Shown: piece after piece, positions 3,340 to 61,775 of the stretch
Position numbering within the stretch: the first letter of the stretch is position 1
Layout of the letters: each line of letters begins with the position of its first letter
Source: Corynebacterium occultum
GTDB taxonomy: Bacteria; Actinomycetota; Actinomycetes; Mycobacteriales; Mycobacteriaceae
NCBI RefSeq assembly: GCF_009734425.1
Contig: NZ_CP046455.1
Location: 310,001 to 374,000, forward strand
Length of the DNA stretch: 64,000 bases
Direction: 5' to 3'
The notes under the pieces: generated by a model
Seen by the model: only the letters and a program-made list of their open reading frames with translations
Told to the model about the DNA's origin: nothing
The model's database searches: none
Made by a program: the position numbers and the translations under genes

Positions 3340-3351
3340 GCGTCGATAAGC
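3340..3351 (+). repeat. GCGTCGATAAGC motif, copy 1 (exact)
   Basis: Lies in the convergent intergenic region, 5 bp beyond the stop codon of the DMT permease gene. The extended form GGCGTCGATAAGCG is complete here. Confidence 0.85.
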
Positions 3352-3355
3352 GGCC

Positions 3356-4216
3356 TCAGGTGACGTTGCGCCGGGAGAGCACGACCGTGGACAGCACCAT
3401 GAGGAAGAAAGCTACCCCCAGCCAGATCCAGTCGAAACCATCCACCCGGAAAGATTCCCCGAGGACTGCGAAGCCCAGGCCGAAGGCGATGATCGGCTCC
3501 GCGATCTTCATGGCGGGCAGAGAGGTGCGCAGGGAGCTGGCGTTGAAGGCGGACTGCTGCACCAGAGTGCCCATGGTGGCGGCAAAGATCAGGGCATAGC
3601 TTTCCCAGGAGATGATCAGGCCGAGTACACCGGAGCTGACAAAGGAGTCCGCCACCGCCTTGGAGAGCACCGCCACATAACCGAAGATGGCACCGGTGAC
3701 CAGGCCCAGAATCAAGGCACGGTTACGTCCTTTCTGGTGTTTGGCCACCCGATCCATCACGAAGAGCACCAGGACACCGAGCAGCAACGCCAACCACCAG
3801 CGGGAGAAGGAGGGATGGCTCTGGCCGCCGATGGGGCGGCCCAGAATCACCATCACCGACACGGACACGGTGAGCAGACTCGCCCAGAACAGCTCCGCCT
3901 TGGATACCCGGTGATTGTCATAGATCGCGGCCACCGGGATCGTGAAAATCAGGGACATCACCAGAATGGGCTGCACCACCAGCAGGGGGCCGAAACCCAG
4001 GGCCACCACCTGCAGGCAGTAGGCCATGATCGCGGTACTCATCCCCGCCCACCACATGGGGCGTTTGATGGCGGTGAGAAAGGGGGATTTACCTGCCGGA
4101 ACCGCCTTGGCGATACGGTGACGGACGACTGTCCCCCAGGCGATCGTCAACGCCGATGCGAGGGCGAAGATCGCGGCGAGCAGGTTGTTTTCCACGCTGT
4201 CGATACTAGTACCCAC
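3356..4216 (-). CDS. DMT-superfamily permease (EamA-like)
   Basis: A 286-residue protein with about ten hydrophobic helices, the normal size and layout for a drug/metabolite transporter of the EamA type. Two halves of similar character are visible, with a short charged loop near RVAKHQKGRNR in the middle. The start is GTG, and the segment NLLAAIFALASAL begins the first helix. No substrate can be read from the sequence. It lies upstream of lysC, but on the opposite strand and separated from it by an insertion sequence, so co-regulation is not implied. Confidence 0.75.
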   Translation of the reverse strand: MGTSIDSVENNLLAAIFALASALTIAWGTVVRHRIAKAVPAGKSPFLTAIKRPMWWAGMSTAIMAYCLQVVALGFGPLLVVQPILVMSLIFTIPVAAIYDNHRVSKAELFWASLLTVSVSVMVILGRPIGGQSHPSFSRWWLALLLGVLVLFVMDRVAKHQKGRNRALILGLVTGAIFGYVAVLSKAVADSFVSSGVLGLIISWESYALIFAATMGTLVQQSAFNASSLRTSLPAMKIAEPIIAFGLGFAVLGESFRVDGFDWIWLGVAFFLMVLSTVVLSRRNVT

Positions 4217-4267
4217 GTTGATGGGCTAACTAAAACGAGTGGCATGGTGAGGGACACATATATATAA

Positions 4268-5227
4268 GAGATCGCGCGGATAGAGGTCATGGTCGTCGGG
4301 CAGGTCGGGTATCCCAGCGGTGGGTCGTCCACGCTTCCCGGACCAGCCGACGGATGATGATAATCGCGTTCGCCAGGGCGATAAACGCCTCCACGACCCT
4401 GGCACGACGCTCGGTGCAGATCAGGAGTTTGTTGAACCCCCGGTTGTGCCAGGAGTTCGTCCGCTCGACGACCCATCGGGCACCGGCCTGTAAGGGCTCG
4501 CCTTTCTTACTGATGACCCAGTCGCAGCCGAGTTCGGTGAGCAGGGTCCGGGTCTTGTTCGAGTCGTAGCCGGCGTCCAGATGCACCGTGATCTCCTCGG
4601 GCAGGTAAAACTCGAACCGGCCGAGCTTTTCCAACGTCGGACGCAACAACGGGGAGTCATGGCGGTTCGCCCCGATGAGCACACACCCCAGCGGGATACC
4701 GTTGCCGTCGACCAACAACGAGCGTTTGGTGCCCTGTTTGCCCCGGTCAACCGGGGATCTGCCGGCGGCTTCCCCACCGCAGGGGGCCTTGACGATGCAT
4801 CCGTCCACGCTCACGTTCTCCAGGTCGAGTCCGACGATCCGGTCGTAGAACTCCAGACACAGCTGCTCCAGTTGGGTGAAGATCCCGGCCTCAATCCACT
4901 CATCCCGACGGGTACGCAGCGTGGTGGCCGAACAGGTGGAATCGGCGATCTTGGCGTACGAGGCACCGAGGACGAGGACCTGGATGAGCTTGTCGAAGAC
5001 GATCCGGTCCGCGATCCTCGGCCGGTGGCATCCCCACGGATGAGATATTTCCCGGGTGGGGATCAGCGCGGCGAACTGGTCGAAGAGGGGGTTCATGATG
5101 AATGATGGAAGGGCAGGCACGAGTGCTCCTGAAGTGCTTACGTTTTCTTGGTCGAATCCGTATGTACCAGGCCTCGTGCCTGCCCCTGTTCACGACACCC
5201 CGCCACACCCTCTATCCGCGCAATCTC
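4268..5227 (-). mobile_element. Complete IS5-family insertion sequence (IS1031-like group)
   Basis: A 960-bp element with 19-bp terminal inverted repeats: 4268-4286 and the complement of 5209-5227, matching at 18 of 19 positions. It is flanked by a 3-bp direct repeat TAA (4265-4267 and 5228-5230). A TNA duplication is what I recall for the IS1031-type subgroup of IS5. One open reading frame fills the element, and its stop codon directly abuts the inner end of the left repeat. Intact ends, an intact duplication and an uninterrupted transposase suggest recent insertion and possible activity. The right end lies about 260 bp before lysC. Confidence 0.93.
4287..5120 (-). CDS. IS5-family DDE transposase
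   Basis: A 277-residue transposase that is complete for its type. The N-terminal DUF4096-like part is followed by a DDE domain with the first Asp in NVSVDGC, the second in HLDAGYDS and the Glu in WVVERTNSW. The chosen GTG start at 5120 has AGGAG five bases upstream; an internal ATG at 5096 (MNPLFDQ) is the alternative. No frameshift is visible, unlike IS5 members that need programmed slippage. It is transcribed away from lysC. Confidence 0.93.
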   Translation of the reverse strand: MPALPSFIMNPLFDQFAALIPTREISHPWGCHRPRIADRIVFDKLIQVLVLGASYAKIADSTCSATTLRTRRDEWIEAGIFTQLEQLCLEFYDRIVGLDLENVSVDGCIVKAPCGGEAAGRSPVDRGKQGTKRSLLVDGNGIPLGCVLIGANRHDSPLLRPTLEKLGRFEFYLPEEITVHLDAGYDSNKTRTLLTELGCDWVISKKGEPLQAGARWVVERTNSWHNRGFNKLLICTERRARVVEAFIALANAIIIIRRLVREAWTTHRWDTRPARRP

Positions 5228-5346
5228 TAAGGAGGGAAATATTCGGGCGGGGAGGGGCAGGGCCTGAGGGGGCAGCTCCACTGGGGGGCTTCAGGGGGGG
5301 GCGTCGCAAAGCGCTTGCCCGCTTGGGTGACAGTGGAAAAGGGGCT

Positions 5347-5366
5347 TGTGAATTCCGGTTTTCACA
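5347..5366. promoter_or_regulatory. Inverted repeat upstream of lysC
   Basis: TGTGAA and TTCACA form perfect 6-bp arms separated by 8 bp, about 120 bp before the lysC start. The half-sites resemble the Crp/GlxR half-site TGTGA, but the spacing is wrong for GlxR, which prefers six bases between TGTGA and TCACA. It may be an operator for another dimeric regulator. Confidence 0.35.
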
Positions 5367-5488
5367 TGGGGGTAACCAGCTAAGAGATGGGCGGGGGCAC
5401 CTTGGGGTTGTATATGTGCCGGGGGTGGGTTCCGGCGGTACGATTAACTTTGTTCGCAGTTGTTTCCGAAGAAGAAAGGCGGCTGCTG

Positions 5489-6791: not shown

Positions 6792-8005
<1,214 letters not shown>

Positions 8006-8108: not shown

Positions 8109-8738
8109 CTAGCGTCGCTCGTTCTTCTCGGCCGCATTCTTGGCGGCGATGAGGTCCTTGCGGGCCCGGGCAACCCGGGAGCGAATGGTGCCCACCCGGA
8201 CTCCGGAGATCTTTGCGGCTTCCTCATAGGTGTAGCCGAGCGCCTGGGTGAGGATGAGCGCCTCGCGGCGCTCTTCGGGGAGGGCGTCGATAAGCGTGCG
8301 GGCGTCGATCCAATCGGACCATTCACTCGAGCCGCCCCCGGGAGAAGTCATACTTTCGGCGACATCCTCATACTCCGCAGCAGACTTCCGGGGCCGCGCC
8401 ATGTCGTGGCGAATATTGTCCACCCACACCCGCCGCGCCAGGGAAAGTAGCCAGGTCCGGGCTGAACTCCGCGCCGCAAAGCGGGGGAGGGCTCCCATCA
8501 CCCGCAGGTAGGTCTCCTGGGTGAGGTCATCGGCGATGGCATGTCCGCCGAGATGGGCCAGCAGGCGCCACACATCTCCCTGGGTTTCTTTGATGAACTC
8601 CGTGAGCGCTGAGCGGTCGCCGCGGCCGGCGGCGAGTGCCAGCTCAGTGACCCTTTCATCATCGCGCTCGGAGTGTTGTCCCACGAGATTCGAGGATACC
8701 AGGAACTCCGGTATTCCCAGGTCATGGCTAAAGTTCAC
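8109..8738 (-). CDS. sigC: ECF sigma factor SigC
   Basis: A sigma-70 factor with region 2 (DDLTQETYLRV, RTWLLSLARRVW) and region 4 (GYTYEEAAKISGVRVGTIRS), typical of extracytoplasmic-function sigma factors. In C. glutamicum the same gene lies beside katA, and SigC controls respiratory genes such as cytochrome bd. No anti-sigma gene is adjacent. The 209-residue frame may be over-long at the N-terminus: homologues align well only from about ERDDERVTELAL onward, and a start inside the first 20 residues is possible. The promoter region is shared with divergent katA. The gene contains one exact copy of the GCGTCGATAAGC motif, coding for TLIDA. Confidence 0.88.
   Translation of the reverse strand: MNFSHDLGIPEFLVSSNLVGQHSERDDERVTELALAAGRGDRSALTEFIKETQGDVWRLLAHLGGHAIADDLTQETYLRVMGALPRFAARSSARTWLLSLARRVWVDNIRHDMARPRKSAAEYEDVAESMTSPGGGSSEWSDWIDARTLIDALPEERREALILTQALGYTYEEAAKISGVRVGTIRSRVARARKDLIAAKNAAEKNERR
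8284..8295 (+). repeat. GCGTCGATAAGC motif, copy 3 (exact)
   Basis: Inside sigC. On the coding strand it reads CTT ATC GAC GC(C), Leu-Ile-Asp-Ala. Confidence 0.85.
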
Positions 8739-12478: not shown

Positions 12479-14005
12479 TTAGCGTCCTCCCTGCAGTTCG
12501 GACATGTCGGGAACTCCGACGGGGTCATCGCCGAGCACGGCCTGCTGGTAGGTGGCCACGTCGAGCAGATCACCGGTGGCGGTGAGCGCGGCGTCGATAA
12601 GCGGGCCGGCGAAGATGAACATGGCCAGGGACACCGCCATGAGGGTGGCTGCCGGGCCAATCACCCCACCCCGTACCCGCAGTGAACCCGGGACGGACTG
12701 CATGGGACGGCCCCAGAACACCTGGCGCCAGACCCGCAGCATGGCCAGGAGCGCCCCGAAGCTGGCGAGGATGATCGCGCTGATGACCACCCAGGAACGC
12801 CAATCGGCGGCACGTGCCACCTCGATCACGATGAAGGCCTTGCCCCAGAGTCCCGAGAAGGGCGGGAAACCCACCACGGAGAAGGCACCGGCGGCAAACA
12901 CGGCGGCCACCACAGGTTCCCGGCGCGCCAGGCCGGAGAGTCTCTTCAGCACCCCGGTGCCGTAGGTTTCCTCGATCGCGCCGGAGGTCAGTACGAGGGA
13001 GCCGACGGTGATCATGTGGTGCAGGGTGTAGAGCAGCCCGGCGGCCAGGGCGCGCTGCGGATCCCCCGAGGTGAAGGCCAGCATGACCAGGATGAAGGGC
13101 ATGCCGTTGATCATCTGGTAGGCCAGGACACGGCGGATGGAGTTCTCCGCCAGGCCGGCGAAACCACCCAGCAACATGGAGGCGACCATCACCACGATGA
13201 TCAGGGTGTTCCAGCGGTCCTCCAGATCGAAGATGACCACGTAGATGCGGAAGAGCATGTACACCGCGACCTTGGTGTGCAGGCCGGAGAACAGTCCCAT
13301 CACCGCCGCCGAGGTGCCGGGGTAGGTGCGCGGCAGCCAGGTGTGGACCGGGAAGACACCGGCCTTGGTGGCGATCGCGATGATCACCATGCCCATGGCC
13401 ACGGTGGCTGGGCCATTACCGGCCGCCACCCCCTGCAGGGCGGCGATGTTCACGGAGCCGGTGACACCGTAGACGAAGCCCACCCCGACCACCAGCATGG
13501 TGGAGGCCGCGAGGTTGACCAGCACGAAGGTGCGCCCCGCGGCCAGGCGTGCCCCGGTGCCGGTCATGGCCATCAGCCCATAGGAGGGCAGCAGCATAAC
13601 CTCGATGAAGACGAAGAAGTTGAAGAGGTCCGCGGTCATCAGCGCACCATTGACACCGGTGATCAGCATCAGGGTCAGCGCCGGATAGTAGCGGGAGCGG
13701 GTTTCCCCGGCGACGGTGGCGAACCAGTTGGCCACCAGGGCGACGATCCCGGTGGTGATGATCATGATCGCGGAGAAGGTGTCCACGGCGAAGGGGATCG
13801 CCACACCGCCCTGGAACAGCCCCACATTATGGGCCAGGGTGCCGTGCTCGGCGGTGTAGGTGAAAAGTCCGATGCCGGCGAGGATGCTGGCGGCGGGGAT
13901 GATCAGGTGGAGCAGATCCCGGGCCCATTTCCACGGGGCCATCACGGCCAGCGCGGAGGACACCAGGGGGACGGCTACCAGGAGGGGTATCAGGGCATCC
14001 ATCAA
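12479..14005 (-). CDS. mrpD: Na+/H+ antiporter subunit MrpD
   Basis: A 508-residue, roughly 14-helix protein of the NuoL/M/N proton-pump family. Hallmarks include FNFFVFIEVMLLPSYGL and VFPVHTWLPRTYPG, the regions with the conserved membrane Glu and Lys/His used for proton transfer. Its ATG overlaps the mrpC stop. It holds one exact GCGTCGATAAGC motif, coding LIDAA near the C-terminus. Confidence 0.95.
   Translation of the reverse strand: MMDALIPLLVAVPLVSSALAVMAPWKWARDLLHLIIPAASILAGIGLFTYTAEHGTLAHNVGLFQGGVAIPFAVDTFSAIMIITTGIVALVANWFATVAGETRSRYYPALTLMLITGVNGALMTADLFNFFVFIEVMLLPSYGLMAMTGTGARLAAGRTFVLVNLAASTMLVVGVGFVYGVTGSVNIAALQGVAAGNGPATVAMGMVIIAIATKAGVFPVHTWLPRTYPGTSAAVMGLFSGLHTKVAVYMLFRIYVVIFDLEDRWNTLIIVVMVASMLLGGFAGLAENSIRRVLAYQMINGMPFILVMLAFTSGDPQRALAAGLLYTLHHMITVGSLVLTSGAIEETYGTGVLKRLSGLARREPVVAAVFAAGAFSVVGFPPFSGLWGKAFIVIEVARAADWRSWVVISAIILASFGALLAMLRVWRQVFWGRPMQSVPGSLRVRGGVIGPAATLMAVSLAMFIFAGPLIDAALTATGDLLDVATYQQAVLGDDPVGVPDMSELQGGR
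12591..12602 (+). repeat. GCGTCGATAAGC motif, copy 4 (exact)
   Basis: Inside mrpD near its 3' end, in the same codon phase as in sigC (Leu-Ile-Asp-Ala). Confidence 0.85.
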
Positions 14006-14469: not shown

Positions 14470-17468
14470 CGGTCATTCTCCTTCTGCTTATCGACGCCTG
14501 CTTCGACGTCGCGCTGCTCCCGCACCGCGGTGGTGCCCACGCTGCGGGAGGGCCCGTCATCCCGGGGGTCAGGATTGGGTTCGAGTGGTTCCGGGTAAGG
14601 CTCGGTGATGATCTCCGCCGGGGGAGCCGGGGTCGGGGTGTCCGGCAGGGGGCCGGAACTGCGGGCGTAGTCCAGCTCAGCCACGGAGGCCGCGCCGGGC
14701 CGGAGGTAACCGCCCATGGAGTTGATGGCGGCGGTCAGCATGCCCAGCACCGCCAGGTAGATACCGCCGTCGAAGACGAGGGAGGTGGTCCAGTGCTGTC
14801 CCAGGAAGTCGGCGTAGATGGGTTTGAGGAAGGAACCCTCGAGGTAACCCATGAAACCTGCGGCCAGGGCGACGATGATGCCGATGCCGGTCAGCCAGTA
14901 GGGGGTGGAGGGCTTGCCGACGATGCTGTCGCGGCCCTTCGCCAGGTAGGCCATCATGATGGCGGTGCCGGCCACTAGGGCGGCGACGAATCCGCCACCC
15001 GGGTCGGTGTGGCCCCGCATGAAGATCAGGAAACTGAGCACACCCAGCACCGGGGCGGCCAGGGCATAGGCTTTCTTCAGCGGCAGGGAATTCAGCTGGG
15101 ACTGACCGAAGGGGCGGGGGTGGGTGCCGCGGCTGAACTGCATCCGCGGGAAGGAGGACACCACCGCACCGATGACGATGGCCGCCATGCCCAGCACCGA
15201 AAGTTCGCCCAGGGTGTCCAGGGCACGGAACTCCACGATGATGGTGGCCACGATATTCTGGCCGCCGGTGATCTCCGGACCATTGGCCAGGAACCATTCG
15301 GCGAGCTCGGAACGCTCGTGGCGACCCAGGAGGGTGAAGACCGCCAGGAAGGCGGTGACCGCAGCCAGGGCGGCGATGATCAGGGAGCGGATGGTGCGTG
15401 TCCTGGACACCTTGGGGAAGTACTGGGGCTGGTGGCGGATGACCATCATCATGATCACCACGACCAGGGCCTCCACCAGGAACTGGGTGAGTGCCACATC
15501 CGGAGCTCCCAGCAACAACATCTGCAGGCTCACACCCACACCCACTGCGCCGATCAACACGGCACCGGTGACGCGGTTGCGGCTGAGCACCAGGATGCTC
15601 ACCGAACCGAGGATGATCAGGAAGGGTGCCAGATCCAGCCAATTGTCCAGGCCCTCGGCACGCGGTGCCAGGGGGATGCCGTCAATGCCCTCGGTACCGA
15701 AGAGGGTGAAGAGCATCAGGGTGATCACCATGATCACCGGCCACACCAGGTGGCGGGAGGGGCTGAGGGAATCTGCCATGCCAGCGAAGATGCGGCCCAG
15801 CTTCCCGGATCCTTCAGTGAGCGCGTGGAGGGCGGCATTGCCGTTGAAGGGCAGCAGTCGACGGGATTCCAGGGCCGGCCAGATGCGGTGCCGGTAGATC
15901 ACACCGATGATCCCCAGGATGATTGCCGCCAGGGAGATGCCCAATGGGAGGGTGAAACCGTGCCAGAGCGCCAGTTCGGTTTCTGCTTCACCACCGATGG
16001 CCGTGACCACGGCATCGATGGGCTCATTGAAGATCCCGACGGCCAGACCCAGCGGCAGGGAGAGCAGGCCCGGCAGGGCGGCAGGCAACCACAATGAAAC
16101 CGGGGCCTCCCGCACCACCCGCTCGCTGGGCTGCTGGCCCTCGGCGGGGCCGTCGGTGAAGGCCCCGAAGACGATTTTCGCGGAATACGTGAAGGTCAGC
16201 AGAGCGCCCAGTCCACCCAGCAGGAGCAGTACCCAGGTGGGGCCCTCCCCGATCGGGGCTTCCTGGAAAGCGGTGAGCATCCCCTCCTTGGAGATGAATC
16301 CCAACATCGGGGGGACCGCGGCCATGGACAGCGCGCCGATCAACACCGAGGCGAAGGTCCAGGGCATCTTCTTCCAGATGACCCCCAGGCGGCGGATATC
16401 CCGGGTGCCGGTCTGGTGGTCGATGACACCGATGAGCATGAAGAGGGAGGACTTGAAGAGGGCATGCGCCAGGGTGTGCACCAGGGCCGCCGCCAGGGCG
16501 AAGGGGGTGCCCACGCCGATCGTCGCCACGATCCAGCCGAGGTGGCTGACGGTGGAGTAGGCGGTCAGCTTCTTCAGATCCGTCTTCTGCACCGCAAAAA
16601 GCGCGGACACCACTGCAGTGGAGATGCCGACCACGATGAGCAGCCAATTCCACACCGTCACATCGTGGAAGATGGTGGAGAACCGCAGCAGCAGGTAGAT
16701 ACCGGCCTTGACCACTGCAGCGGCATGCAGGAAAGCCGACACCGGGGTGGCCGCGGCCATGGCCTCCGGCAGCCAGAAGTGGAAGGGAAGCTGGGCGGAC
16801 TTGGTGAAGGCGGAGATGGCGATCAGCACCGCCACCACCGCGCTGAGCCCCGCATCCTGTGCCCACACCGGGCTGGCCAGGATTTCACTCAGCGAGGTGC
16901 TCCCGGTCTGGGTGGCGGCCAGCGCCAACGCCGCCAACAGGGTCAGACCGCCGATGAAGGTGAGCACCAGGGTACGCACCGAACCCGATTCACCAGCCGA
17001 TCCGGAACGCGCGATCAGCAGGAAGGAGGCGATGGACACCAGTTCCCAACCGATGAAGAGCACCAGCACATCATCGGCGAGCACCAGCACCAGGATCGCC
17101 AGGGTGAAGGCGGTCATGATGGTGTAGAAACTAGTGTTTCCCTGATGTTTAGGCAGGTAAGCGGCGGAATAGATGAACACCATCGCGCCGATCAGCAGGG
17201 CCAGTAAAGCGAAGAAAACGCCGAGGGCATCAGCTTTCAGCGCAAAATCCACATCCACCCCGGCCGCCAGGAAATCACGGACCCAGACAAAGGACCAGGT
17301 CTGGGCGCGACCCGCCAGGACGTCGGGGAGTTCCATGCTCAAAACGGCGGCGGCCGCCAGGAAAAGCGCGGCCAGGGGCCAACCGGCTTTTCGGTCCAGC
17401 AGACGAACCAGAGGTGGAGAGAGGAGCACTGCCGCCCCGGCAAGGGCGATCACAATCGGCAGAGTCAC
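14466..17468 (-). CDS. mrpA: Na+/H+ antiporter subunit MrpA with fused MrpB domain
   Basis: The large proton-pumping subunit, about 1000 residues. The N-terminal about 480 residues are NuoL-like (FIGWELVSIASFLLI, FHFWLPEAMAAATPVSAFLHA). A middle DUF4040-type part (LLLGAPDVALTQFLVEAL) and a C-terminal MnhB domain (MRGHTDPGGGFVAALVAG) follow, so mrpB is fused into this gene and no separate mrpB is present. GTG at 17468 (VTLPIVIAL) has GGAGAG upstream; a TTG 18 bases earlier is also in frame. The hydrophilic tail encodes VDK from a GCGTCGATAAGC motif. The operon should give sodium and alkali tolerance and pH homeostasis. Confidence 0.95.
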   Translation of the reverse strand: MTLPIVIALAGAAVLLSPPLVRLLDRKAGWPLAALFLAAAAVLSMELPDVLAGRAQTWSFVWVRDFLAAGVDVDFALKADALGVFFALLALLIGAMVFIYSAAYLPKHQGNTSFYTIMTAFTLAILVLVLADDVLVLFIGWELVSIASFLLIARSGSAGESGSVRTLVLTFIGGLTLLAALALAATQTGSTSLSEILASPVWAQDAGLSAVVAVLIAISAFTKSAQLPFHFWLPEAMAAATPVSAFLHAAAVVKAGIYLLLRFSTIFHDVTVWNWLLIVVGISTAVVSALFAVQKTDLKKLTAYSTVSHLGWIVATIGVGTPFALAAALVHTLAHALFKSSLFMLIGVIDHQTGTRDIRRLGVIWKKMPWTFASVLIGALSMAAVPPMLGFISKEGMLTAFQEAPIGEGPTWVLLLLGGLGALLTFTYSAKIVFGAFTDGPAEGQQPSERVVREAPVSLWLPAALPGLLSLPLGLAVGIFNEPIDAVVTAIGGEAETELALWHGFTLPLGISLAAIILGIIGVIYRHRIWPALESRRLLPFNGNAALHALTEGSGKLGRIFAGMADSLSPSRHLVWPVIMVITLMLFTLFGTEGIDGIPLAPRAEGLDNWLDLAPFLIILGSVSILVLSRNRVTGAVLIGAVGVGVSLQMLLLGAPDVALTQFLVEALVVVIMMMVIRHQPQYFPKVSRTRTIRSLIIAALAAVTAFLAVFTLLGRHERSELAEWFLANGPEITGGQNIVATIIVEFRALDTLGELSVLGMAAIVIGAVVSSFPRMQFSRGTHPRPFGQSQLNSLPLKKAYALAAPVLGVLSFLIFMRGHTDPGGGFVAALVAGTAIMMAYLAKGRDSIVGKPSTPYWLTGIGIIVALAAGFMGYLEGSFLKPIYADFLGQHWTTSLVFDGGIYLAVLGMLTAAINSMGGYLRPGAASVAELDYARSSGPLPDTPTPAPPAEIITEPYPEPLEPNPDPRDDGPSRSVGTTAVREQRDVEAGVDKQKENDR
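14486..14497 (-). repeat. GCGTCGATAAGC motif, copy 5 (exact)
   Basis: In the mrpA tail. Here the motif lies on the coding strand and reads GC GTC GAT AAG C, giving Val-Asp-Lys, a different phase from the sigC and mrpD copies. Confidence 0.85.
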
Positions 17469-17583: not shown

Positions 17584-19038
17584 ATGAGCTCCCTTAGGTC
17601 GCGCCTTCTTTCCCTGCTCGTCCTCCTCCCACTGATCATCGGTGCGGTGTACCTGGCAATCGCCGGAATCGGCCCCGACCGTTCCTGGTCGGCGGCCGAA
17701 GAAAGCACCGGGGCCCCCATCGAGGGGGGCCCCACCGGAATTGACCCCGCCGCGCTTGTCGACGCCCGACGCGCGGCCAGCGAAGCCGGTGCCCAGGCGG
17801 GGTTCCTGGCCTCCGGCACCGGGGAACTGACCGCCGGTACCGGTGCGCTCCGCGAAGGTGCCGACGAACTCGGCGGCGCCATGGAAGAGGCCAAGTCCGG
17901 TGCCCAGGAACTGTCCAACGGCCTGGTGCAGCTGCAGGCAGCCACCGGCCAGCTCGGCAATGGGGCCACCCAGGTCGCTGATGGGGTGTCCCTGGCCATC
18001 GAACAACTCACCGGGCTCAGCGCCATCCAAATGCAGCTGATCCAGGCGATCGAGGGCATCAACGCCGAATTGGAGAAATCCGATGTGCCCGAAGCCCGAC
18101 AGATCCGGGAGCAGCTCACCGGTTTCCGGGCCCAGGTCGAGGCTTTCCCCCTGACCGGGGAGAACGCCGACCAGCTCAACCAGCTCCGCGAGGGTGCCCG
18201 GGACATCGCCAACCAGCTGGCCGTCCCCGGTTATGGCTTCCATGACGGTATCTACTCCGCCACGGATGGCGCCCGCCGTCTCAATGAAGGTCTCGGTCAG
18301 CTCCAGGGTGGGGTGGGGGAGGCCGTCGACGGTGTCAGTCAGCTTGATGAAGGTGCCCAGAAAATCGACCAGATGGCCGGGACCACCCAGGACAAACTCA
18401 GCAACGTCCAACGCAGCCTTCCGGTCACTCCGGCCGCCGGTGCTGAAGGTACGGCAGCTGAAGGGCAGGTGGTGGCCTCCGCCGCCGGGGACGTGGAGGG
18501 TTATCTGGTCCCCCTCTATGCGCTGTTCATCGGTGCCCTGAGCACGCTGGGTGGCATCGCCATCAGTTACCTGGGCCGGGGGATCGGGCGTCGTCTTGAT
18601 CGGATCCTCGGCGGCATCGGGGTGGTCGCCCTCGGCACTGTCCTCTATATCCTCGCCGCCCAGGGACTGAATCCGCTGCGGCTGGGGGCAGCCATCGCAG
18701 TGCTGGCCCTCATGACCGCGGCTTCCGCTGGGCTGGCGCTGGTGGTGCGCCGCGTGGTGGGGGAACGTCCAGGTGGGTTGCTCGCCATGGTCGGGGCCAT
18801 CATCCAGGTCGGCCTGGTCGGCTGGGTGTGGAAGAGCTCCGCGGGCACGGAGGTCGCAGCCATCTGGGAAATCGTCGCCAGTCTCACCCCGCTGCACTAT
18901 GCCACCGCTGCGCTGACCGTCAGCGGCAATGCCGGTGATCCGCTGCTCTTCTGGGTCAGCGGGGCGGTGTTGGGGGGAGTGGCACTGCTGACGGGGCTGC
19001 TGCAGCTGGGTGGGAGGAAGCGGGCTGGAGCCAGGTAG
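17584..19038 (+). CDS. YhgE/Pip-like membrane protein
   Basis: A 484-residue protein. One N-terminal helix (about residues 10-27) is followed by a long external segment rich in Gly, Ala, Gln and Asn with repeated ELxxGxxQLxxG spacing (about 75-150 and 225-265). It ends with about five helices (300-480). This is the layout of YhgE/Pip-family and ABC-2-like proteins related to phage-infection protein and type VII secretion partners. It is divergent from mrpA with about 115 bp between the starts. No ATPase partner is nearby. Its role is unknown; envelope transport or assembly is inferred from architecture only. Confidence 0.7.
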   Translation: MSSLRSRLLSLLVLLPLIIGAVYLAIAGIGPDRSWSAAEESTGAPIEGGPTGIDPAALVDARRAASEAGAQAGFLASGTGELTAGTGALREGADELGGAMEEAKSGAQELSNGLVQLQAATGQLGNGATQVADGVSLAIEQLTGLSAIQMQLIQAIEGINAELEKSDVPEARQIREQLTGFRAQVEAFPLTGENADQLNQLREGARDIANQLAVPGYGFHDGIYSATDGARRLNEGLGQLQGGVGEAVDGVSQLDEGAQKIDQMAGTTQDKLSNVQRSLPVTPAAGAEGTAAEGQVVASAAGDVEGYLVPLYALFIGALSTLGGIAISYLGRGIGRRLDRILGGIGVVALGTVLYILAAQGLNPLRLGAAIAVLALMTAASAGLALVVRRVVGERPGGLLAMVGAIIQVGLVGWVWKSSAGTEVAAIWEIVASLTPLHYATAALTVSGNAGDPLLFWVSGAVLGGVALLTGLLQLGGRKRAGAR

Positions 19039-43381: not shown

Positions 43382-46357
43382 GTGGCAGCAGACAATGGCT
43401 CGGACGTCAAACGACTTGTGATTGTCGAGTCGGCGACCAAGGCAAAGAAGATACAGCCTTACCTGGGAAACAACTACATCGTCGAAGCCTCGGTGGGTCA
43501 TATCCGTGACCTGCCGCGCGGTGCTGCAGATGTTCCCGCAAAGTACAAGAAGGAACCCTGGGCCCGCCTCGGCGTGGACACCGACCACGGTTTCTCCCCC
43601 TTGTACGTGGTCAGCCCCGATAAGAAGAAGAAGGTCGCTGACCTCAAGGCCAAGCTCAAGCAGGTCGATGAGCTGTACCTCGCAACAGACCCCGACCGTG
43701 AGGGCGAGGCCATTGCCTGGCACCTGCTCGAAGTCCTGAACCCCCAGGTTCCGGTCCGCCGCATGGTCTTCCACGAGATCACGAAGCCGGCCATCCTCGA
43801 GGCGGCCGCCAACACCCGCGAACTCGACCACAACCTGGTCGACGCCCAGGAAACCCGCCGCATCCTGGACCGCCTCTATGGCTATGAGATCTCCCCGGTG
43901 CTGTGGAAGAAGGTCATGCCGCGGCTGTCGGCCGGGCGGGTGCAGTCCGTGGCCACCCGCGTGATCGTCGAACGCGAACGCGAACGCATGGCCTTCGTCT
44001 CCGCCGACTACTGGGATATCGCCGCCGAGCTGGACACCGGCAACCAGGGGCAGGACCCGGAGAACCCCCGCACCTTCAAGGCCAAGCTCACCGCCATCGA
44101 CGGGGTGCGCATCGCCCAGGGCCGTGATTTCAATGACCGCGGCCAACTGACCTCTGAAGTTGTGGTCGTGGATCAGGTTCGTGCCGAGGCGTTGGCAGCC
44201 GGTCTCCAAAAAGCCCAGCTCAGTGTCGCGGGGGTCGAGGAAAAGCCCTATACCCGTCGCCCCTACGCACCCTTCATGACCTCCACCCTGCAGCAGGAGG
44301 CCGGCCGTAAGCTGCACTTCACCTCGGAGCGGACCATGCGCATTGCGCAGCGTCTCTACGAGAACGGTCACATCACCTATATGCGTACTGACTCCACCTC
44401 GCTCTCTGCCTCCGGTATCGAGGCCGCCCGGGCTCAGGCACGGGAGCTCTATGGCGCCGCCTTCGTCGCAGAAAGCCCGCGTCGTTATGACCGCAAGGTG
44501 AAGAACTCCCAGGAGGCCCACGAGGCCATCCGTCCCGCCGGCGAAACCTTCGCCACCCCGGGTCAGCTGCACGGCCAGCTCGATGCGGAGGAATACAAGC
44601 TCTATGAGCTGATCTGGCAGCGCACCGTCGCCTCCCAGATGTCGGACGCGAAGGGCACCTCCATGAAGGTGACCGTCAGCGGTGAGGCCGAAAGTGGGGA
44701 ACAGGTGGAGTTCTCCGCCACCGGCCGCACCCTCACCTTCCCCGGTTTCCTCCGCGCCTATGTCGAAACCACCCTCAACGCCGAGGGGCGCGATGTCGCC
44801 GACAACGCAGAGAGCCGCTTGCCGCGCCTGAACAAGGATGATGATCTCAGCGTCAACCATCTTGAAGCTGCCGGTCACTCCACCAATCCGCCGGCCCGTT
44901 ACACCGAAGCCAGCCTGGTGAAGAAGATGGAGGACCTGGGCATCGGTCGTCCTTCAACCTATGCGTCGATCATCCGCACCATCCAGGACCGTGGTTATGT
45001 CCTGCCGCGCGGTAACGCCCTGGTCCCCAGCTGGGTGGCCTTCGCCGTGATCGGCCTGATGGAGCAGAACTTCGAGGACCTGGTCGACTATGACTTCACC
45101 TCCTCCATGGAGGATGAGCTCGATAACATCGCCAGTGGTCAAGAGGACCGCACCGAATGGCTCAACGGCTTCTACTTCGGCAACCCCGATGCCTCTGACG
45201 CCAAGGCCGAGTCCATTGCCCGTAAGGGCGGACTCAAGACCCTGGTCGGTGAGAACCTCGAGCAGATCGACGCCCGACTGGTGAACTCCCTGCACCTCTA
45301 CGATGATTCCGAGGGTCGGGCCATCAATGTCCGGGTGGGTCGTTACGGCCCCTATATTGAACGCCAGGTGGGTGTGAAGGAGGATGGCGAACCGGAGTAC
45401 CAGCGCGCCAACCTGCCGGAATCCACCACTCCGGATGAGTTGACCCTGGAGGTCGCCGAGAAGCTCTTCGCCACCCCGCAGGGCGGTCGTGAGCTGGGTG
45501 TGAACCCGGCCAATGGTCGTGTCATCGTGGCCAAGGAAGGCCGCTATGGTCCTTATGTCACCGAGCAGGTGCGTGAGGATGAGCGTGAGCGGGCTGAGAC
45601 TGAGGCGGAGAAGATCATCCTCGTGGAACGCGAGGAGGAGGACCGCCAGCGCGCCGAGGAAGGCAAGCGGAAGAAGAACTGGGACACCAAGACCGCCGCC
45701 AACCAGAAGGAGAAGCGGATCAACCAGCTGGTCGAGGAATCCCTCAAGCCGGCCACCGCCTCCCTCTTCTCCTCCATGGAACCTGCCACCGTCACCCTGG
45801 AGCAGGCGCTGCAGCTGCTTTCCCTGCCCCGCGAGGTCGGTGTCGACCCGGTGGACAATGAGGTCATCACCGCACAGAACGGCCGCTACGGCCCCTATCT
45901 GAAGAAGGGCACCGACTCCCGTTCCCTGGCAAATGAGGAGCAGATCTTCACCGTCACCCTGGATGAGGCCCGCCGTATCTACGCTGAGCCCAAACGCCGT
46001 GGCCGTGCCGCTGCCACCCCGCCGTTGAAGGTGCTGGGGGACAATGACGTTTCCGGCAAGCCGATGACCGTCAAGGACGGCCGCTTCGGCCCCTATGTCA
46101 CCGATGGCGAGACCAACGCCTCGTTGCGCAAGGGAGATGTTCCGGAAAAGCTTACCGACGCCCGCGCCAATGAGCTGCTCTCTGAGCGTCGCGCCAAGGA
46201 AGCCGCCGATGGTGGAACCAAGAAGACCACCAAGAAGACCACGGCGAAGAAAACCACCGCCAAGAAGACCACCAAGAAGACCACGGCGAAGAAAACCACC
46301 AAGAAGCCGCCGCAGACCACCAAGCGTGTAGTCAAGGCCGGCACCCGGAAGCAGTAA
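43382..46357 (+). CDS. topA: DNA topoisomerase I
   Basis: A 991-residue type IA topoisomerase that relaxes negative supercoils. The TOPRIM domain opens with RLVIVESATKAKKI and contains DPDREGEAIAWH for Mg2+. The catalytic Tyr is in ITYMRTDSTSLS. Several C-terminal TopA repeats of the GRYGPY type occur (GRYGPYIER, EGRYGPYVT, NGRYGPYLK, DGRFGPYVT). The Lys/Thr-rich tail of AKKTT repeats is usual in actinobacteria and gives processive DNA binding. The GTG start yields MAADNGSDVKRLV. Confidence 0.97.
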   Translation: MAADNGSDVKRLVIVESATKAKKIQPYLGNNYIVEASVGHIRDLPRGAADVPAKYKKEPWARLGVDTDHGFSPLYVVSPDKKKKVADLKAKLKQVDELYLATDPDREGEAIAWHLLEVLNPQVPVRRMVFHEITKPAILEAAANTRELDHNLVDAQETRRILDRLYGYEISPVLWKKVMPRLSAGRVQSVATRVIVERERERMAFVSADYWDIAAELDTGNQGQDPENPRTFKAKLTAIDGVRIAQGRDFNDRGQLTSEVVVVDQVRAEALAAGLQKAQLSVAGVEEKPYTRRPYAPFMTSTLQQEAGRKLHFTSERTMRIAQRLYENGHITYMRTDSTSLSASGIEAARAQARELYGAAFVAESPRRYDRKVKNSQEAHEAIRPAGETFATPGQLHGQLDAEEYKLYELIWQRTVASQMSDAKGTSMKVTVSGEAESGEQVEFSATGRTLTFPGFLRAYVETTLNAEGRDVADNAESRLPRLNKDDDLSVNHLEAAGHSTNPPARYTEASLVKKMEDLGIGRPSTYASIIRTIQDRGYVLPRGNALVPSWVAFAVIGLMEQNFEDLVDYDFTSSMEDELDNIASGQEDRTEWLNGFYFGNPDASDAKAESIARKGGLKTLVGENLEQIDARLVNSLHLYDDSEGRAINVRVGRYGPYIERQVGVKEDGEPEYQRANLPESTTPDELTLEVAEKLFATPQGGRELGVNPANGRVIVAKEGRYGPYVTEQVREDERERAETEAEKIILVEREEEDRQRAEEGKRKKNWDTKTAANQKEKRINQLVEESLKPATASLFSSMEPATVTLEQALQLLSLPREVGVDPVDNEVITAQNGRYGPYLKKGTDSRSLANEEQIFTVTLDEARRIYAEPKRRGRAAATPPLKVLGDNDVSGKPMTVKDGRFGPYVTDGETNASLRKGDVPEKLTDARANELLSERRAKEAADGGTKKTTKKTTAKKTTAKKTTKKTTAKKTTKKPPQTTKRVVKAGTRKQ

Positions 46358-50486: not shown

Positions 50487-52133
50487 TCAGCCATCGGTGA
50501 TGTCGCGGCGTCGATAAGCGACCACGGCGAGCAGTGACAACGCCAGGATGAGTGCGCTCATGAACAGCAGCGGCAGGGCATGAACTTCAGCCTGGGGTGC
50601 GGCCGGGGTGTGCCAGAGCGGGGAGAGGGCACTGGCCCAGTCCGGCAGGTTGAGTATCTCCCCGAGGAAGAGCACCAGCGAGGTCCACACCACCGGCACC
50701 CAGCCGAGCAGCGCCCACCGTCGGGAAAATCCCTGGCAGCAGGCGGCGATTGCCCCATGCAGGATGATCGCCGGCAGGTACACCAGGCAGGCCAGTAGCA
50801 TGGTCGGGATCCAGGAGATCTCCCCGCTGGCCAACACCATGCCCAGTCCCAGCCCGAAACCCAGGATGAGCTGCATGATCACTGCCAGCAAGGTGACCAT
50901 GGCACACCAGCTGAGAAGCAGCGAAGCCCGGGAACTTCCCGTCCGGATGAGGGCGGCCGCCCGGCCCGCTGATTCCTCCCGACGCAACCCCAGCACTCCT
51001 GCCACCAGCAGGGCAACCGGGCCCAGTGCCAGCATGGACAGCATCACCGCGCCGAAGGAACGGGTCAGATCCGCCAGATCTATCTCAATGAAGTCGGAGA
51101 AGTTCGGCATCTCATCAATCAGATCCTCCAACTCGGAGGAGAGCATCCCGAAACCGATGGCGAAACAGAAGAGCCCGGCGGTCCACCACAGGAAAGTGGC
51201 CCCTTCCATGCGCGCCGCCAACCCGGCGGGGGAGAGCTGGGCGGGGCGGGCATGCGTGCGGCCGGGGCGTGGTTGGGTGAGTCCGGAACCGAGGTCACGG
51301 ACGTGGGCCAGCCGGAAGGACAGGCCCGTGAGCAGCGCCACCGCCACCACTGCCAGCAGCAGCGGCCACCAGCGCAGGTCCACGAAAAGCCGGGTTTGCT
51401 GCGCCCAAGCGAAGGGGGAGAACCAGGAGAGCCAGGATCCCCGGGGTTCCATGACATCACCGACACCCCGGATGAAGTAGGCCAGGGCCACCAGGGCCAG
51501 CCCCATCCCGGTGGTGGTCCGGGCGGAGGTGCTCAGGTGGGCTGCCACCCCGGTTGCGGCGGCAAACACCAGGGCCGACAGGGTGGTGCCCAGCCCGAAG
51601 GCGAGGGAGTCCGCCAACTCCATGCGGGCCAGGACCAACCCCAGCGTTGTGGCTGCTCCCACCAACACGGAAAAGATCAGCAGGATCAACAGAGCTGCGG
51701 TCGGGGCGGCGAAACGGCCCACCGGCAGGGCCCGCAGCATCTCCAGACGGCCGCTCTCCTCCTCGGCGCGGCTGTGCCGGGACATGTAGATCACGCCCAT
51801 GATCGCCGCGGGCAGAAAAGTGTAGAGCGAAAGCTCATTGGCCACCATCGCCCCGAAGGTGTAATTCTCCAGCCCGAAGAGGGGGCCGGTCATCATGATT
51901 GCCGCCGGGTTGTTCAGCAGCATCGCCCGGGCCTGCAACGCCGCCTGGTCGGGGTAGGCGGCGTCCAGGGCAGCCACCGAGGCCCACACCAACAGGAAGA
52001 AGGACAGCCCCCACGCCACCAGGTGGATGCGGTCCAGGCGGAGATAGAGGCGGAGAAGGTGGGTGGAACCGGTGAAGGGGCCACTGCCCTGGCGGACAGC
52101 AGATCCGGGGGGAGTGGAACGCAGGCCAATCAT
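50487..52133 (-). CDS. ABC exporter permease
   Basis: A 548-residue, roughly 12-helix permease like those annotated as 'exporter of polyketide antibiotics' in actinobacteria. It has an N-terminal and a C-terminal ABC-2 half with a hydrophilic loop near residues 285-305. Its start overlaps the ATPase stop by one base (TGATG). The last codons contain an exact GCGTCGATAAGC motif, read as AYRRR. The substrate is unknown. Confidence 0.85.
   Translation of the reverse strand: MIGLRSTPPGSAVRQGSGPFTGSTHLLRLYLRLDRIHLVAWGLSFFLLVWASVAALDAAYPDQAALQARAMLLNNPAAIMMTGPLFGLENYTFGAMVANELSLYTFLPAAIMGVIYMSRHSRAEEESGRLEMLRALPVGRFAAPTAALLILLIFSVLVGAATTLGLVLARMELADSLAFGLGTTLSALVFAAATGVAAHLSTSARTTTGMGLALVALAYFIRGVGDVMEPRGSWLSWFSPFAWAQQTRLFVDLRWWPLLLAVVAVALLTGLSFRLAHVRDLGSGLTQPRPGRTHARPAQLSPAGLAARMEGATFLWWTAGLFCFAIGFGMLSSELEDLIDEMPNFSDFIEIDLADLTRSFGAVMLSMLALGPVALLVAGVLGLRREESAGRAAALIRTGSSRASLLLSWCAMVTLLAVIMQLILGFGLGLGMVLASGEISWIPTMLLACLVYLPAIILHGAIAACCQGFSRRWALLGWVPVVWTSLVLFLGEILNLPDWASALSPLWHTPAAPQAEVHALPLLFMSALILALSLLAVVAYRRRDITDG
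50508..50519 (+). repeat. GCGTCGATAAGC motif, copy 10 (exact)
   Basis: At the 3' end of the ABC permease gene; the coding strand reads GCT TAT CGA CGC, Ala-Tyr-Arg-Arg, the third possible phase. Confidence 0.85.
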
Positions 52134-56552: not shown

Positions 56553-56564
56553 GCGTCGATAAGC
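56553..56564 (+). repeat. GCGTCGATAAGC motif, copy 11 (exact)
   Basis: In the intergenic DNA between the chaA-like start and the cyaB stop, 7 bp from the latter. Confidence 0.85.
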
Positions 56565-58145: not shown

Positions 58146-59387
58146 GTGAGTGCCCCTACCCAACCCCTCAGTGTCGCCGAACGTCTCGCGGACCTTCCCG
58201 CCGTGCGTACCGCGCTTATCGACGCCGCGTGGGCCGCCCGCGCCCGGATCCGCGGCGTCCCCGCCAATGATCACCAGGTCGAAGAAAACGCCATGACCCA
58301 CGCCTGGCTCTTCACCGGACCACCAGGCTCCGGCCGCTCCAATGCCGCCATGGCACTGGCCGCGGCACTGGTCTGCACCAACCCGGAGGAACCGGGCTGT
58401 GGGCGCTGCGAGGACTGCCTGGCCGTTTTCAATGACAGCCATACCGATGTGGTGCATGTGGTGCCCCGGGCCTTGAGCATTGGTGTCGGTGAGGTGGAAA
58501 GAATCGTCCGAGACGCCGCGAGCATGCCCACCGTCGCTGACTGGCGGGTCGTGGTTCTCGAAGATGCCGACCGGCTTTCCGAATCCGCGGCGAACTCACT
58601 GCTGAAGACCGTGGAGGAACCCCCCGCCCACACCGTGGTGATTCTCTGCGCCCCTTCCACCGACCCGGAGGACTTCTCCGTCACACTGCGCTCCCGCTGC
58701 CGCCACGTCTACGTCAAAACTCCCTCCAAAGCGGAGATCACCCGCATCCTCATGACCGAGGAAGGTGCCAGCGCCGCTGATGCTGAGCTGGCTGCCGTCG
58801 CCTCGCTGCGACACATCGGCAGGGCCCGACGACTGGTGAAATACCCCGAGGCCCAGAAACGCCGCTCTGAGATCCTCAACCTCGCCGAAATGGTCTTCCA
58901 CGGTGATCAGGCATTCCAGGCAGTCGGCCGTTTCGTGGATCCGATCCGCAAACAGGTCAGGGAGGAACTCACCGAAGCCAATGATGAGGAGCGGCGGAAA
59001 CTCGAGGCATCGATGGGGGCCGGTGGTCGAGGCAAGGGCACCCAGAAAATGGCCCGCGGGATGGGGGGACAACTCAAGGAATTGGAAAAGCAGCAGAAAC
59101 TCCGCGAAACCCGCCGCGTCCGAGACCTGCTCGACCTCTCCCTCCTGGACTTCTCCAGCCTCTACCGGGATGCCCTCATGATCAAGGTCGGGGCCCAGGT
59201 GGAACTGACGCACCCCGACTATCACGGACTGGCTGCTGAGCTGGCGGGACGAGGCAGTGAAGCCGGGCTGGTGGCCTGCCTCGACGCCATCACCCGCTGC
59301 CGGGAACAACTCGAGGAAAACGTCCAGCCCAAGGTCGCTTTCGATGGCATGATCGGGCGGGTCCGCAAGGCTTTCCAAGTCTCTTGA
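58146..59387 (+). CDS. holB: DNA polymerase III delta' subunit
   Basis: A 413-residue clamp-loader subunit. P-loop-like GPPGSGRSNAA has Arg in place of the catalytic Lys, as expected of a non-hydrolysing delta'. It has the zinc-binding Cys cluster CGRCEDC and the SRC motif LRSRCRHV. The GTG start lies 42 bp from the divergent cyaB. The N-terminal 30 residues contain a GCGTCGATAAGC motif coding LIDAA. Confidence 0.93.
   Translation: MSAPTQPLSVAERLADLPAVRTALIDAAWAARARIRGVPANDHQVEENAMTHAWLFTGPPGSGRSNAAMALAAALVCTNPEEPGCGRCEDCLAVFNDSHTDVVHVVPRALSIGVGEVERIVRDAASMPTVADWRVVVLEDADRLSESAANSLLKTVEEPPAHTVVILCAPSTDPEDFSVTLRSRCRHVYVKTPSKAEITRILMTEEGASAADAELAAVASLRHIGRARRLVKYPEAQKRRSEILNLAEMVFHGDQAFQAVGRFVDPIRKQVREELTEANDEERRKLEASMGAGGRGKGTQKMARGMGGQLKELEKQQKLRETRRVRDLLDLSLLDFSSLYRDALMIKVGAQVELTHPDYHGLAAELAGRGSEAGLVACLDAITRCREQLEENVQPKVAFDGMIGRVRKAFQVS
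58214..58225 (-). repeat. GCGTCGATAAGC motif, copy 12 (exact)
   Basis: Inside holB near its 5' end, read as Leu-Ile-Asp-Ala. Confidence 0.85.
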
Positions 59388-60437: not shown

Positions 60438-60523
60438 GGCGACTCACTGGTGTACCGAATAAATACCGCTCGGTCTAGTACGCTGTAACTGTCCGATAAT
60501 GAACTGATAGGACCATCTGGCCA

Positions 60524-61024
60524 ATGACTGCTTCCGCCGAAATCTTCCGTTCCGCCTTTCGGGCCCACCCCACCGGAGTTGCGGTAATCACCGCGCTGAC
60601 TGCCGAGGGGCAGGTCGGGATCACCGCCTCGAGCGTGTCTTCCCTGGCGCTGGATCCCCTGGCCATCTCCTTTTCCCTGCAGCGGCAGAGCGGTTCGGCG
60701 GGCAAGCTGCTGAAGGCGGAGAGTTTCCTGGTTCACCTGCTGGCTGATGAGCATGCCGAGCTGGCGAAGGCTTTCGCCACCACCGGTGATCCGCGCTTCG
60801 TTCCGGAACAGGGTTGGGAGGAATTACCGAGCGGGGAACCCTACCTGCGTACCGCGCCCTTCGCGTTGCGGGTGAAGCCGGTCGGCACGGTCAAGGTCGG
60901 CGAGGCCACTCTTGTTGCGGCTGAGGTGCTGGAGGTTCTTGAGGGGCCGAAGGGTTCTCCATTGGTCTATCAGGATCGCACGTTCCTGAGCCTCACCGGC
61001 GCCAAGCCGCCCGTGGCACGTTAG
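60524..61024 (+). CDS. Flavin reductase-like protein
   Basis: A 166-residue FMN-binding split-barrel protein of the HpaC/flavin-reductase type (FRAHPTGVAVITA, GITASSVSSLALDPLAISFSL, DRTFLSLTG). It reduces free flavin with NAD(P)H, or supplies an oxygenase elsewhere. It lies behind the SoxR-type promoter and before sodA, so a redox-stress role is inferred. Confidence 0.87.
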   Translation: MTASAEIFRSAFRAHPTGVAVITALTAEGQVGITASSVSSLALDPLAISFSLQRQSGSAGKLLKAESFLVHLLADEHAELAKAFATTGDPRFVPEQGWEELPSGEPYLRTAPFALRVKPVGTVKVGEATLVAAEVLEVLEGPKGSPLVYQDRTFLSLTGAKPPVAR

Positions 61025-61057
61025 TTCACTGGCCGAGGGTTAGAACTACCCCCTTTA

Positions 61058-61073
61058 AGTGAGATTGCTCACA
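61058..61073. promoter_or_regulatory. Probable GlxR site upstream of sodA
   Basis: AGTGAGATTGCTCACA matches TGTGA-N6-TCACA at every defined half-site base except the first. It lies 78 bp before the sodA start and about 40 bp before a likely -10 region TATATT (61103-61108). Confidence 0.7.
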
Positions 61074-61150
61074 TACCCCTAGCTTAAACCGGTCCCAGGC
61101 TATATATTGGAAGTTATTAATAAATAAGAGTTATTGAGAGGAAATATTTA

Positions 61151-61753
61151 ATGACTGTTTATGAGCTTCCGGAACTGGATTACGCCTACGACGCACTCGA
61201 GCCGCACATCGCCGCCGAGATCATGGAGCTGCACCACTCCAAGCACCACGCCACCTACGTCGGCGGTGCCAACGCAGCCCTCGAGGCACTGGAGAAGGCA
61301 CGCGAGGAGGGCACCAACCCGGACCAGATCCGCGCACTGTCCAAGAACCTGGCCTTTAACCTCGGTGGCCACACCAACCACTCCATCTTCTGGAAGAACC
61401 TCTCCCCCAACGGTGGCGGCGAGCCCACCGGCGAGCTGGCTGAGGCCATCAACCGTGACTTCGGCTCCTTCGCCAAGTTCCAGGACCACTTCAACTCCGC
61501 CGCACTGGGCCTGCAGGGCTCCGGCTGGGCCGTCCTGGGCTACGACCACATCGCAGGTCGTCTGGTCATCGAGCAGCTGACCGACCAGCAGGGCAACATC
61601 TCCATCGACATCACCCCGCTGCTGATGCTCGACATGTGGGAGCACGCCTTCTACCTGCAGTACAAGAACGTCAAGGCCGACTACGTCAAGGCCGTCTGGA
61701 ACGTCTTCAACTGGGAAGACGTCGCCGCACGTTACGCTTCCGCCGCCAAGTAA
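61151..61753 (+). CDS. sodA: Superoxide dismutase (Mn/Fe)
   Basis: A 200-residue superoxide dismutase. Metal ligands are visible: His in LHHSKHH (about residue 28), His in GHTNHSIFW (about 77), and Asp and His in [16 protein letters not shown] precedes the ATG. Monocistronic. No signal peptide, so it is cytosolic unless exported by another route. Confidence 0.96.
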
Positions 61754-61763
61754 GCGTTCCTGA

Positions 61764-61775
61764 GCTTATCGACGC
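61764..61775 (-). repeat. GCGTCGATAAGC motif, copy 13 (exact)
   Basis: Intergenic, 11 bp after the sodA stop. Confidence 0.85.

Follow-up and report, generated by a model that had tools for sequence, protein, structure and literature searches.

Copies of the word in the window

A 64-kb window of the Corynebacterium occultum genome (the whole stretch of 64,000 nucleotides analysed here; contig NZ_CP046455.1, positions 310,001 to 374,000) contains a dispersed 12-bp word, GCGTCGATAAGC, on both strands. With up to one mismatch allowed, it was found 16 times (9 exact copies and 7 with one mismatch), compared with 0.16 copies expected from dinucleotide shuffles (Table 1). The nine exact and four one-mismatch positions of the initial annotation were all reproduced by the window scan, eight of them on the plus strand and five on the minus strand. 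Three additional one-mismatch copies were found at 7804, 17754 and 46150, all on the minus strand. The extension of the word to GGCGTCGATAAGCG also held for 7 of the 9 exact copies, the exceptions being those at 14486 and 61764.

Among the genes reported to carry copies, a sigma factor, MrpD, MrpA and HolB were recovered. NCBIfam models placed MrpD at 12479-14005, MrpA at 14466-17486 and HolB at 58146-59387. The top model for the sigma-factor gene (8109-8738) was an unnamed sigma factor, and the SigC model came second, below its cut-off. The labels “Rv3662c-like” and “ABC permease” were not confirmed, and the open reading frames (ORFs) 31783-32535 and 50487-52133 had no NCBIfam model match at 1e-10.

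Table 1. Copies of the word and genes of the Tad locus in the window
Feature	Position	Strand	Model match
Exact copy GCGTCGATAAGC, intergenic, right beyond the end of a minus-strand gene	3340..3351	+	
One-mismatch copy (CCG...), intergenic	6875..6886	+	
One-mismatch copy GCGTCGTTAAGC within the aspartate-semialdehyde dehydrogenase gene	7804..7815	-	
Exact copy within the SigC-like sigma-factor gene	8284..8295	+	
Exact copy within mrpD	12591..12602	+	
Exact copy within mrpA	14486..14497	-	
One-mismatch copy GCGTCGACAAGC within gene 17584-19038	17754..17765	-	
Left arm (one mismatch) of an inverted pair lying between convergent genes	25275..25286	-	
Exact copy, right arm of the same pair (25275-/25297+), arms separated by 10 nt	25297..25308	+	
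One-mismatch copy (CCG...) within gene 31783-32535	31995..32006	-	
Tad-locus CpaE/Ssd homologue, candidate uptake machinery (putative role)	34074..35186	+	TIGR03815 over cut-off
TadA-family pilus ATPase, putative uptake role	35183..36322	+	TIGR03819 over cut-off
TadB	36319..37131	+	T2SSF domain
ORF with a Flp-like short pilin as its C-terminal part	37688..38080	+	DUF4244 match
TadE-like minor pilin, candidate surface DNA reader	38103..38444	+	Weak, below model cut-off
Rv3654c-family TadE-like minor pilin, candidate surface DNA reader	38441..38782	+	
One-mismatch copy GTGTCGATAAGC, intergenic	42232..42243	+	
One-mismatch copy GCGTCGGTAAGC within topA	46150..46161	-	
Exact copy close to the 3′ end of gene 50487-52133	50508..50519	+	
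Exact copy, intergenic, right beyond a gene end	56553..56564	+	
Exact copy within holB	58214..58225	-	
Exact copy, intergenic, right beyond a gene end	61764..61775	-	

Abundance and layout in the host genome

The genome to which the window belongs (G000) comprises 3,218,058 bases in two contigs. GCGTCGATAAGC occurs in it 171 times exactly, 85 times forward and 86 times in reverse, and its reversed-letter control occurs once. The word is thus neither at background frequency nor confined to the window, the two outcomes that the initial annotation had named as grounds for giving it up. In a 480-kb sample (the window, twenty 20-kb stretches and the comEC locus) the most over-represented 10-mer was GTCGATAAGC, with 50 occurrences against 1.0 expected under a fourth-order Markov model. 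The position-weight matrix of G000 read S-G-g-C-G-T-C-G-A-t-A-A-G-C, with a G-rich 5′ flank and two softer central letters, and detected 169 sites against 25 at equal score in the reversed control. On refinement, the matrices of G000, G020, G117, G053, G013, G099 and G027 showed a clear core, and of these only the G000 matrix was used. The matrices of G019, G048, G006 and G094 drifted towards codon periodicity and were set aside.

Replichore and bin figures rest on 161 of the 171 sites. The sampled stretches had a predominantly positive GC skew as far as 1.45 Mb and a predominantly negative one from 1.6 Mb onwards, and from this change of sign we infer that the origin lies close to the start of the contig and the terminus close to its middle. 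Relative to the replichores of this genome, 82 sites were oriented one way and 79 the other, which supports the earlier claim of a non-polar site. Twelve equal bins contained 8 to 22 sites each, so the sites are not confined to the terminus or the origin. KOPS, Chi, matS and parS are likewise short words dispersed on the chromosome, but KOPS and Chi have a polar orientation, matS occurs only within ter and parS is clustered near ori. These positional patterns were not seen in G000, where orientation did not follow the direction of replication.

The second contig (G000:C2) is 108,872 bases long; the 100,000 bases read from it contained no exact copy, no one-mismatch copy and a single copy of a relaxed word, [G/T]C[G/A]TCG-NN-AAGC, whose fixed letters are C-R-T-C-G..A-A-G-C. 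The corresponding expectations for those 100,000 bases were 6.9, 10.3 and 16.4. This contig is probably, if unproven, a plasmid. An 81-base piece of it matches the transposase region of a Corynebacterium plasmid, and of the eight proteins scanned one is a KAP NTPase, one is AbiEii-like and the others are enzymes and transporters. It carries catabolic genes and the KAP NTPase/AbiEii-like pair; transposase-like and resolvase-like proteins were seen by eye only.

A Chi-like recombination signal for a helicase-nuclease of the RecBCD/AdnAB type would mark self DNA, and the density of the word, one per 1.4-6 kb, lies within the range of Chi. However, Chi sites are oriented and 5-8 nt long, whereas the word lacks replication polarity, is longer than any Chi known to us and is respelled between sister species, and we regard this explanation as very improbable.

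Gaps between sites were more regular than random (coefficient of variation 0.82, against a null of 0.99 ± 0.08; P = 0.004). Such regularity, the even chromosomal spread and the absence of copies from the accessory contig would all suit the binding site of a chromosome organiser (a nucleoid-associated, condensin-loading or segregation protein) with shifted specificity, in which case loss of sites would impair packing. Against this, the 161 sites show no ori, ter or replichore pattern, and we know of no such factor whose site is 12 bp long, non-palindromic, as frequent as one per 1.4 kb and differently spelled in sister species.

Spellings across Corynebacterium

De novo 10-mer enrichment, with no motif supplied, was carried out on 56-76 kb from each of 14 other genomes, and eight of them gave a respelled word clearly or partly. 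The spellings included CATCGGCAAG in both G053 and G006, ATCGGCAAGC in G094, CGTCGTCAAG and CGTCGTAAAG in G099, GTCGTTAAGC and TCGTCGATAA in G027, and GTCGACAAGC and CGTCGAGAAG in G019. No such word was found among the de novo 10-mers of G014, G084, G082, G120, G030 and G039, though G084 was weakly GCA by whole-genome count (73 copies). Possible further dialects without the AAGC end, under-counted by the patterns used here, were seen in the other two of the eight, G013 (GCGTCGGCAA) and G048 (GCGTCGGAAA / GTCGGTAAAA).

Three spellings, GCRTCGNNAAGC, GCATCGNNAAGC and TCGTCGNNAAGC, were then counted genome-wide in 131 members of the genus, with a genome classed as a carrier at twofold over the reversed-word control. 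The main spelling was GCG in 78 genomes, TCG in 19 and GCA in 8, and the word was absent from 26. Carriers number 102-105 of the 131, with G062, G082 and G120 borderline at 2.0-2.2 times the control. The median pattern total per carrier genome was 684, compared with a median control of 44. The highest totals, 1,751 (G027), 1,639 (G089) and 1,470 (G016), came from genomes of 2.3-2.6 Mb. One spelling predominated strongly in four TCG genomes (1,181-1,593 TCG copies against 53-235 GCG copies) and in G053 (551 GCA, 11 GCG and 7 TCG). In several TCG genomes GCG copies were nearly as numerous.

Among the genomes searched, the word is limited to one genus. In 149 genomes of the order outside Corynebacterium, 19 of them from the same family, the relaxed word occurred near or below the level of its reversed control, with a top ratio of about 2.2 (G226, 40 against 18). 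The exact spelling of the window had 0-361 copies in 121 members of the genus and 0-3 in 80 genomes of other genera. Named Corynebacterium records were among the listed matches to the 14-mer form of the word. Matches on viral contigs and 14-mer matches outside Corynebacterium, among those listed, resemble what chance would give in very large collections.

Reading frame, codons and gene ends

A simple in-house gene caller assigned 80.5% of the G000 sample to coding and 19.5% to non-coding DNA, and some “non-coding” copies may sit in genes that it missed. The 480-kb sample contained 82 copies at zero to one mismatch, of which 48 were within genes, 32 lay outside them and 2 straddled a gene edge. 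In 35 of the 48 coding copies the frame was ..CTT ATC GAC GC.., encoding L-I-D-A; nine encoded V-D-K and four were read otherwise. The reported lack of strand bias therefore holds between the chromosome strands but not relative to genes.

The bias towards the L-I-D-A frame is not a protein motif, because both the excess of CTT and the choice of GAC inside the word depart from genome usage. CTT makes up 6% of leucine codons in G000, yet it was used in 18 of 59 Leu-Ile-Asp occurrences. Aspartate in the L-I-D-A frame was encoded by GAC in 34 of 36 copies, against 345 GAC and 562 GAT among 907 comparable contexts. In species with the GCA spelling the same aspartate was GAT in 17 of 18 copies (G006) and 20 of 20 (G053), whereas comparable contexts had GAT in 148 of 221 cases (G006) and 102 of 176 (G053). 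The earlier preference for selection at the DNA level over a shared peptide is thus borne out by the codon choice inside the word.

The word could in principle be a by-product of codon usage or mutation bias, a restriction-modification target, a TraB-type site of conjugative transfer or a miniature mobile repeat. The predominance of one frame among the coding copies and a somewhat different aspartate codon usage between GCA and GCG sister species agree with a by-product. However, the 10-mer is some 50-fold above its Markov expectation, the reversed control was found once, and codon choice inside the word runs opposite to genome usage. Restriction sites are usually avoided rather than enriched. 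The copies share no more than about 12-14 bp and many sites occupy orthologous positions, so the suggestion that the word spread as an element found no support. This group of explanations is already disfavoured, and we give it little credence.

Close neighbours tend to be inverted. In a sample of 912 relaxed sites there were just 14 neighbours at gaps of 0-40 nt, of which 13 were inverted and capable of forming a stem; at 41-80 nt, 17 of 21 were inverted. In G000, copies directly past gene ends (in the window those at 3340, 42232, 56553 and 61764) mostly lie so that the transcript has the stop codon, a few nucleotides and GCUUAUCGACGC, often followed by a C-rich stretch and a hairpin.

An element acting in RNA, or part of a terminator, with GCUUAUCGACGC placed directly after the stop codon and ahead of a GC-rich hairpin, would account for the inverted close pairs, for the 12 relaxed G000 copies that follow a gene end by no more than 40 nt (10 of them in this orientation, 2 in the opposite one) and for the share of non-coding copies (32 of 82 in 19.5% of the DNA). 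Most copies nevertheless lie within genes (48 of 82), the coding copies of G019 lean the opposite way (5 against 9), and placement past gene ends is unclear elsewhere, few such copies being present (1:0 in G020 and 3:1 in G117). The orientation bias of G000 was checked in other genomes and is not general, so that a role in RNA seems a slim prospect.

Evolution of sites between species

A midpoint-rooted tree was built from six marker proteins in 56 of 60 fetched genomes, four with too few markers being dropped, and its topology was taken without reading support values. Fourteen species without the word form one clade. Other non-carriers (G039, G014 and G041, beside the borderline G062 and G120) sit among carriers, and GCA and GCG species interleave within one clade.

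The sister species G004 (GCG) and G006 (GCA) were aligned over 13.6 kb at 78.5% identity. Six of the 10 alignable G004 sites were retained in G006, and all six differed at the third letter (GCG to GCA in five, CCG to CCA in one), with the NN letters the same in five. In the main frame the substitution is silent (GAC to GAT). Where this pentamer occurs outside the word, it stayed as it was in 15 places, underwent the switch in 8 and changed in some other way in 41. The switch is therefore more frequent inside the word (6 of 6) than outside it (8 of the 23 kept or switched; P = 0.006).

Retention was assessed in 18 species pairs in both directions, for sites in alignable DNA. The eight fixed letters were preserved in 131 of 236 directed comparisons of sites, compared with 21% of windows and, for the reversed-word control, 5 of 19 sites (P = 0.017); the comparisons overlap one another and cannot be treated as independent. 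Retention at orthologous sites would also be expected of a chromosome organiser, but the absence of the word from a whole clade and from scattered single species is hard to reconcile with an essential factor, and we consider an organiser unlikely.

Competence and Tad genes

ComEC and DprA were each detected in all 131 genomes of the genus. TadA was detected at E 1e-20 in 126 of the 131, the five misses being draft assemblies, and a comEA match was present in 58 of 60 fetched comEC loci. The Tad locus of the host lies within the window (Table 1).

Across the 131 genomes the open frames of ComEC fall roughly into a long group (about 650-890 aa) and a shorter one. With a cut-off of 640 aa, set after looking at the data, ComEC was long in 22 of 31 genomes with fewer than 60 one-mismatch matches and in 3 of 67 with at least 300. 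A domain difference tied to the word was considered and dropped, because one long and one short ComEC both had the Pfam Competence domain alone and because the dialect counts later redefined the classes.

A putative DNA uptake signal

A 2025 paper (PMC12616744) names, in the part cited, the Neisseriaceae and the Pasteurellaceae as the only families known to select DNA by such words, here called DNA uptake sequences (DUS) and uptake signal sequences (USS), respectively. For the Neisseriaceae, the portion of Frye et al. used here (PMC3630211) gives eight DUS dialects that share a CTG core, and reports five genomes in the family that have no DUS. Like DUS, which are read by the minor pilin ComP, the Corynebacterium word has about 12 nt, very many copies and dialects around a fixed core; the DUS dialects follow phylogeny (PMC3630211, same portion). 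Some genomes of the wider family lack DUS, as some in Corynebacterium lack the word. DUS are often found in inverted repeats (PMC12616744, in the part cited), and the few close pairs seen in Corynebacterium are mostly inverted. USS resemble the word in being short and dispersed, and are described in the same part of that paper as having two dialect types, a surface minor pilin as predicted reader and an AT-rich downstream side (PMC12616744). The letters of the Corynebacterium word are unrelated to those of either family (C-R-T-C-G..A-A-G-C here, a CTG core in DUS), and its 5′ flank in G000 is G-rich, unlike the AT-rich side of USS. It also differs from DUS in belonging to an actinobacterial genus with a Tad (Flp) locus. 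In Micrococcus luteus, an actinobacterium, Tad pili and ComEA/EC serve natural transformation according to the text cited (PMC4322843), and ComEA, ComEC and Tad genes are shared with Corynebacterium. M. luteus needs two tad loci, and the terms “uptake sequence” and “sequence-specific” are absent from the main text of that paper (PMC4322843).

The density of the word, its dialects, its non-polarity and its confinement to the chromosome match DUS and USS, and its few inverted close pairs may do so too. On this basis we suggest, with a probability of roughly 0.6, that the word is a DNA uptake signal of a third, independently evolved family, likely read at the cell surface. It is enriched genome-wide, lies on both strands without polarity in the host genome, has dialects around a core, occurs in genomes that encode competence genes, and is sparse in the one accessory contig. 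Four classes of recognition site had been proposed, for nucleoid, recombination, uptake or modification proteins; the dialects, the density and the copy-free accessory contig make uptake the best fit, and the others rank lower. To our knowledge, DNA uptake sequences are the only words that have about 12 nt, form dialects and lie dispersed without polarity at one per 1.4-6 kb.

As an uptake signal, the word would be a self-tag bound at the cell surface by a putative DNA-binding protein, perhaps a minor pilin of the Tad (Flp) pilus, by analogy with ComP in Neisseria. The Corynebacterium cell has a mycolic-acid outer membrane. DNA of the same species would preferentially be taken up via ComEA/ComEC, presumably entering through ComEC, and would be recombined by a DprA/RecA-dependent route. 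Copies may accumulate by molecular drive, as tagged fragments recombine in more often, and altered specificity of the reader would respell the sites one by one, producing dialects. We put at somewhat better than even the fuller proposal of an uptake signal of Corynebacterium's own, the first outside Proteobacteria, with dialects that switch in concert genome-wide, a Tad (Flp) component as its probable reader and barriers to transfer between species.

Several observations weigh against an uptake signal. Species that lack the word encode the same Com and Tad genes, and possession of the machinery does not separate carriers from non-carriers. Within one clade, no residue of Flp, TadE, TadE-like, TadB, ComEA or ComEC perfectly splits GCA from GCG species. 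Such columns did turn up singly in holA, rsfS and gpm, three of the five controls, and chance alone thus yields them. The actual reader may also be a protein other than these six. Exact copies are sparse in G000 (one per 19 kb; about one per 6 kb for the relaxed word), and the lack of copies on a single accessory contig is compatible with any other site specific to the chromosome as well. The central letters vary widely within one species, and those of DUS are tighter. The GAT share of aspartate codons also rises overall at the aligned locus, from 42% in G004 to 60% in G006, and usage by itself explains part, not all, of the shift between them. Some pairs show no excess retention (G063 to G064, 1 of 4; G202 to G070, 2 of 12; G089/G086, 0 of 4), and the reversed-word control for retention is small. 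Finally, none of the titles and abstracts listed in the searches reports natural transformation in Corynebacterium.

A literature search on the letters of the word returned no paper. Among the titles and abstracts listed for uptake sequences, for competence and for over-represented words, in this genus or in Actinobacteria, none reports it, subscription papers and preprints being outside the search.

If the word is an uptake signal, self-tagging has evolved repeatedly, with a third, unrelated case in Actinobacteria, and natural transformation is predicted in a large genus that includes skin, animal and industrial bacteria and whose DNA preference would be predictable from sequence. Respelled sister species and species without the word would then be natural experiments on the reader and on the concerted change of hundreds of sites.

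Other repeats in the window

Two tandem repeats were also observed. One, with an 18-bp unit, lies at 2636-2808 in the ORF 962-3193. The other is AAG-rich, has a 12/15-bp unit and lies at 46218-46312, close to the 3′ end of topA.

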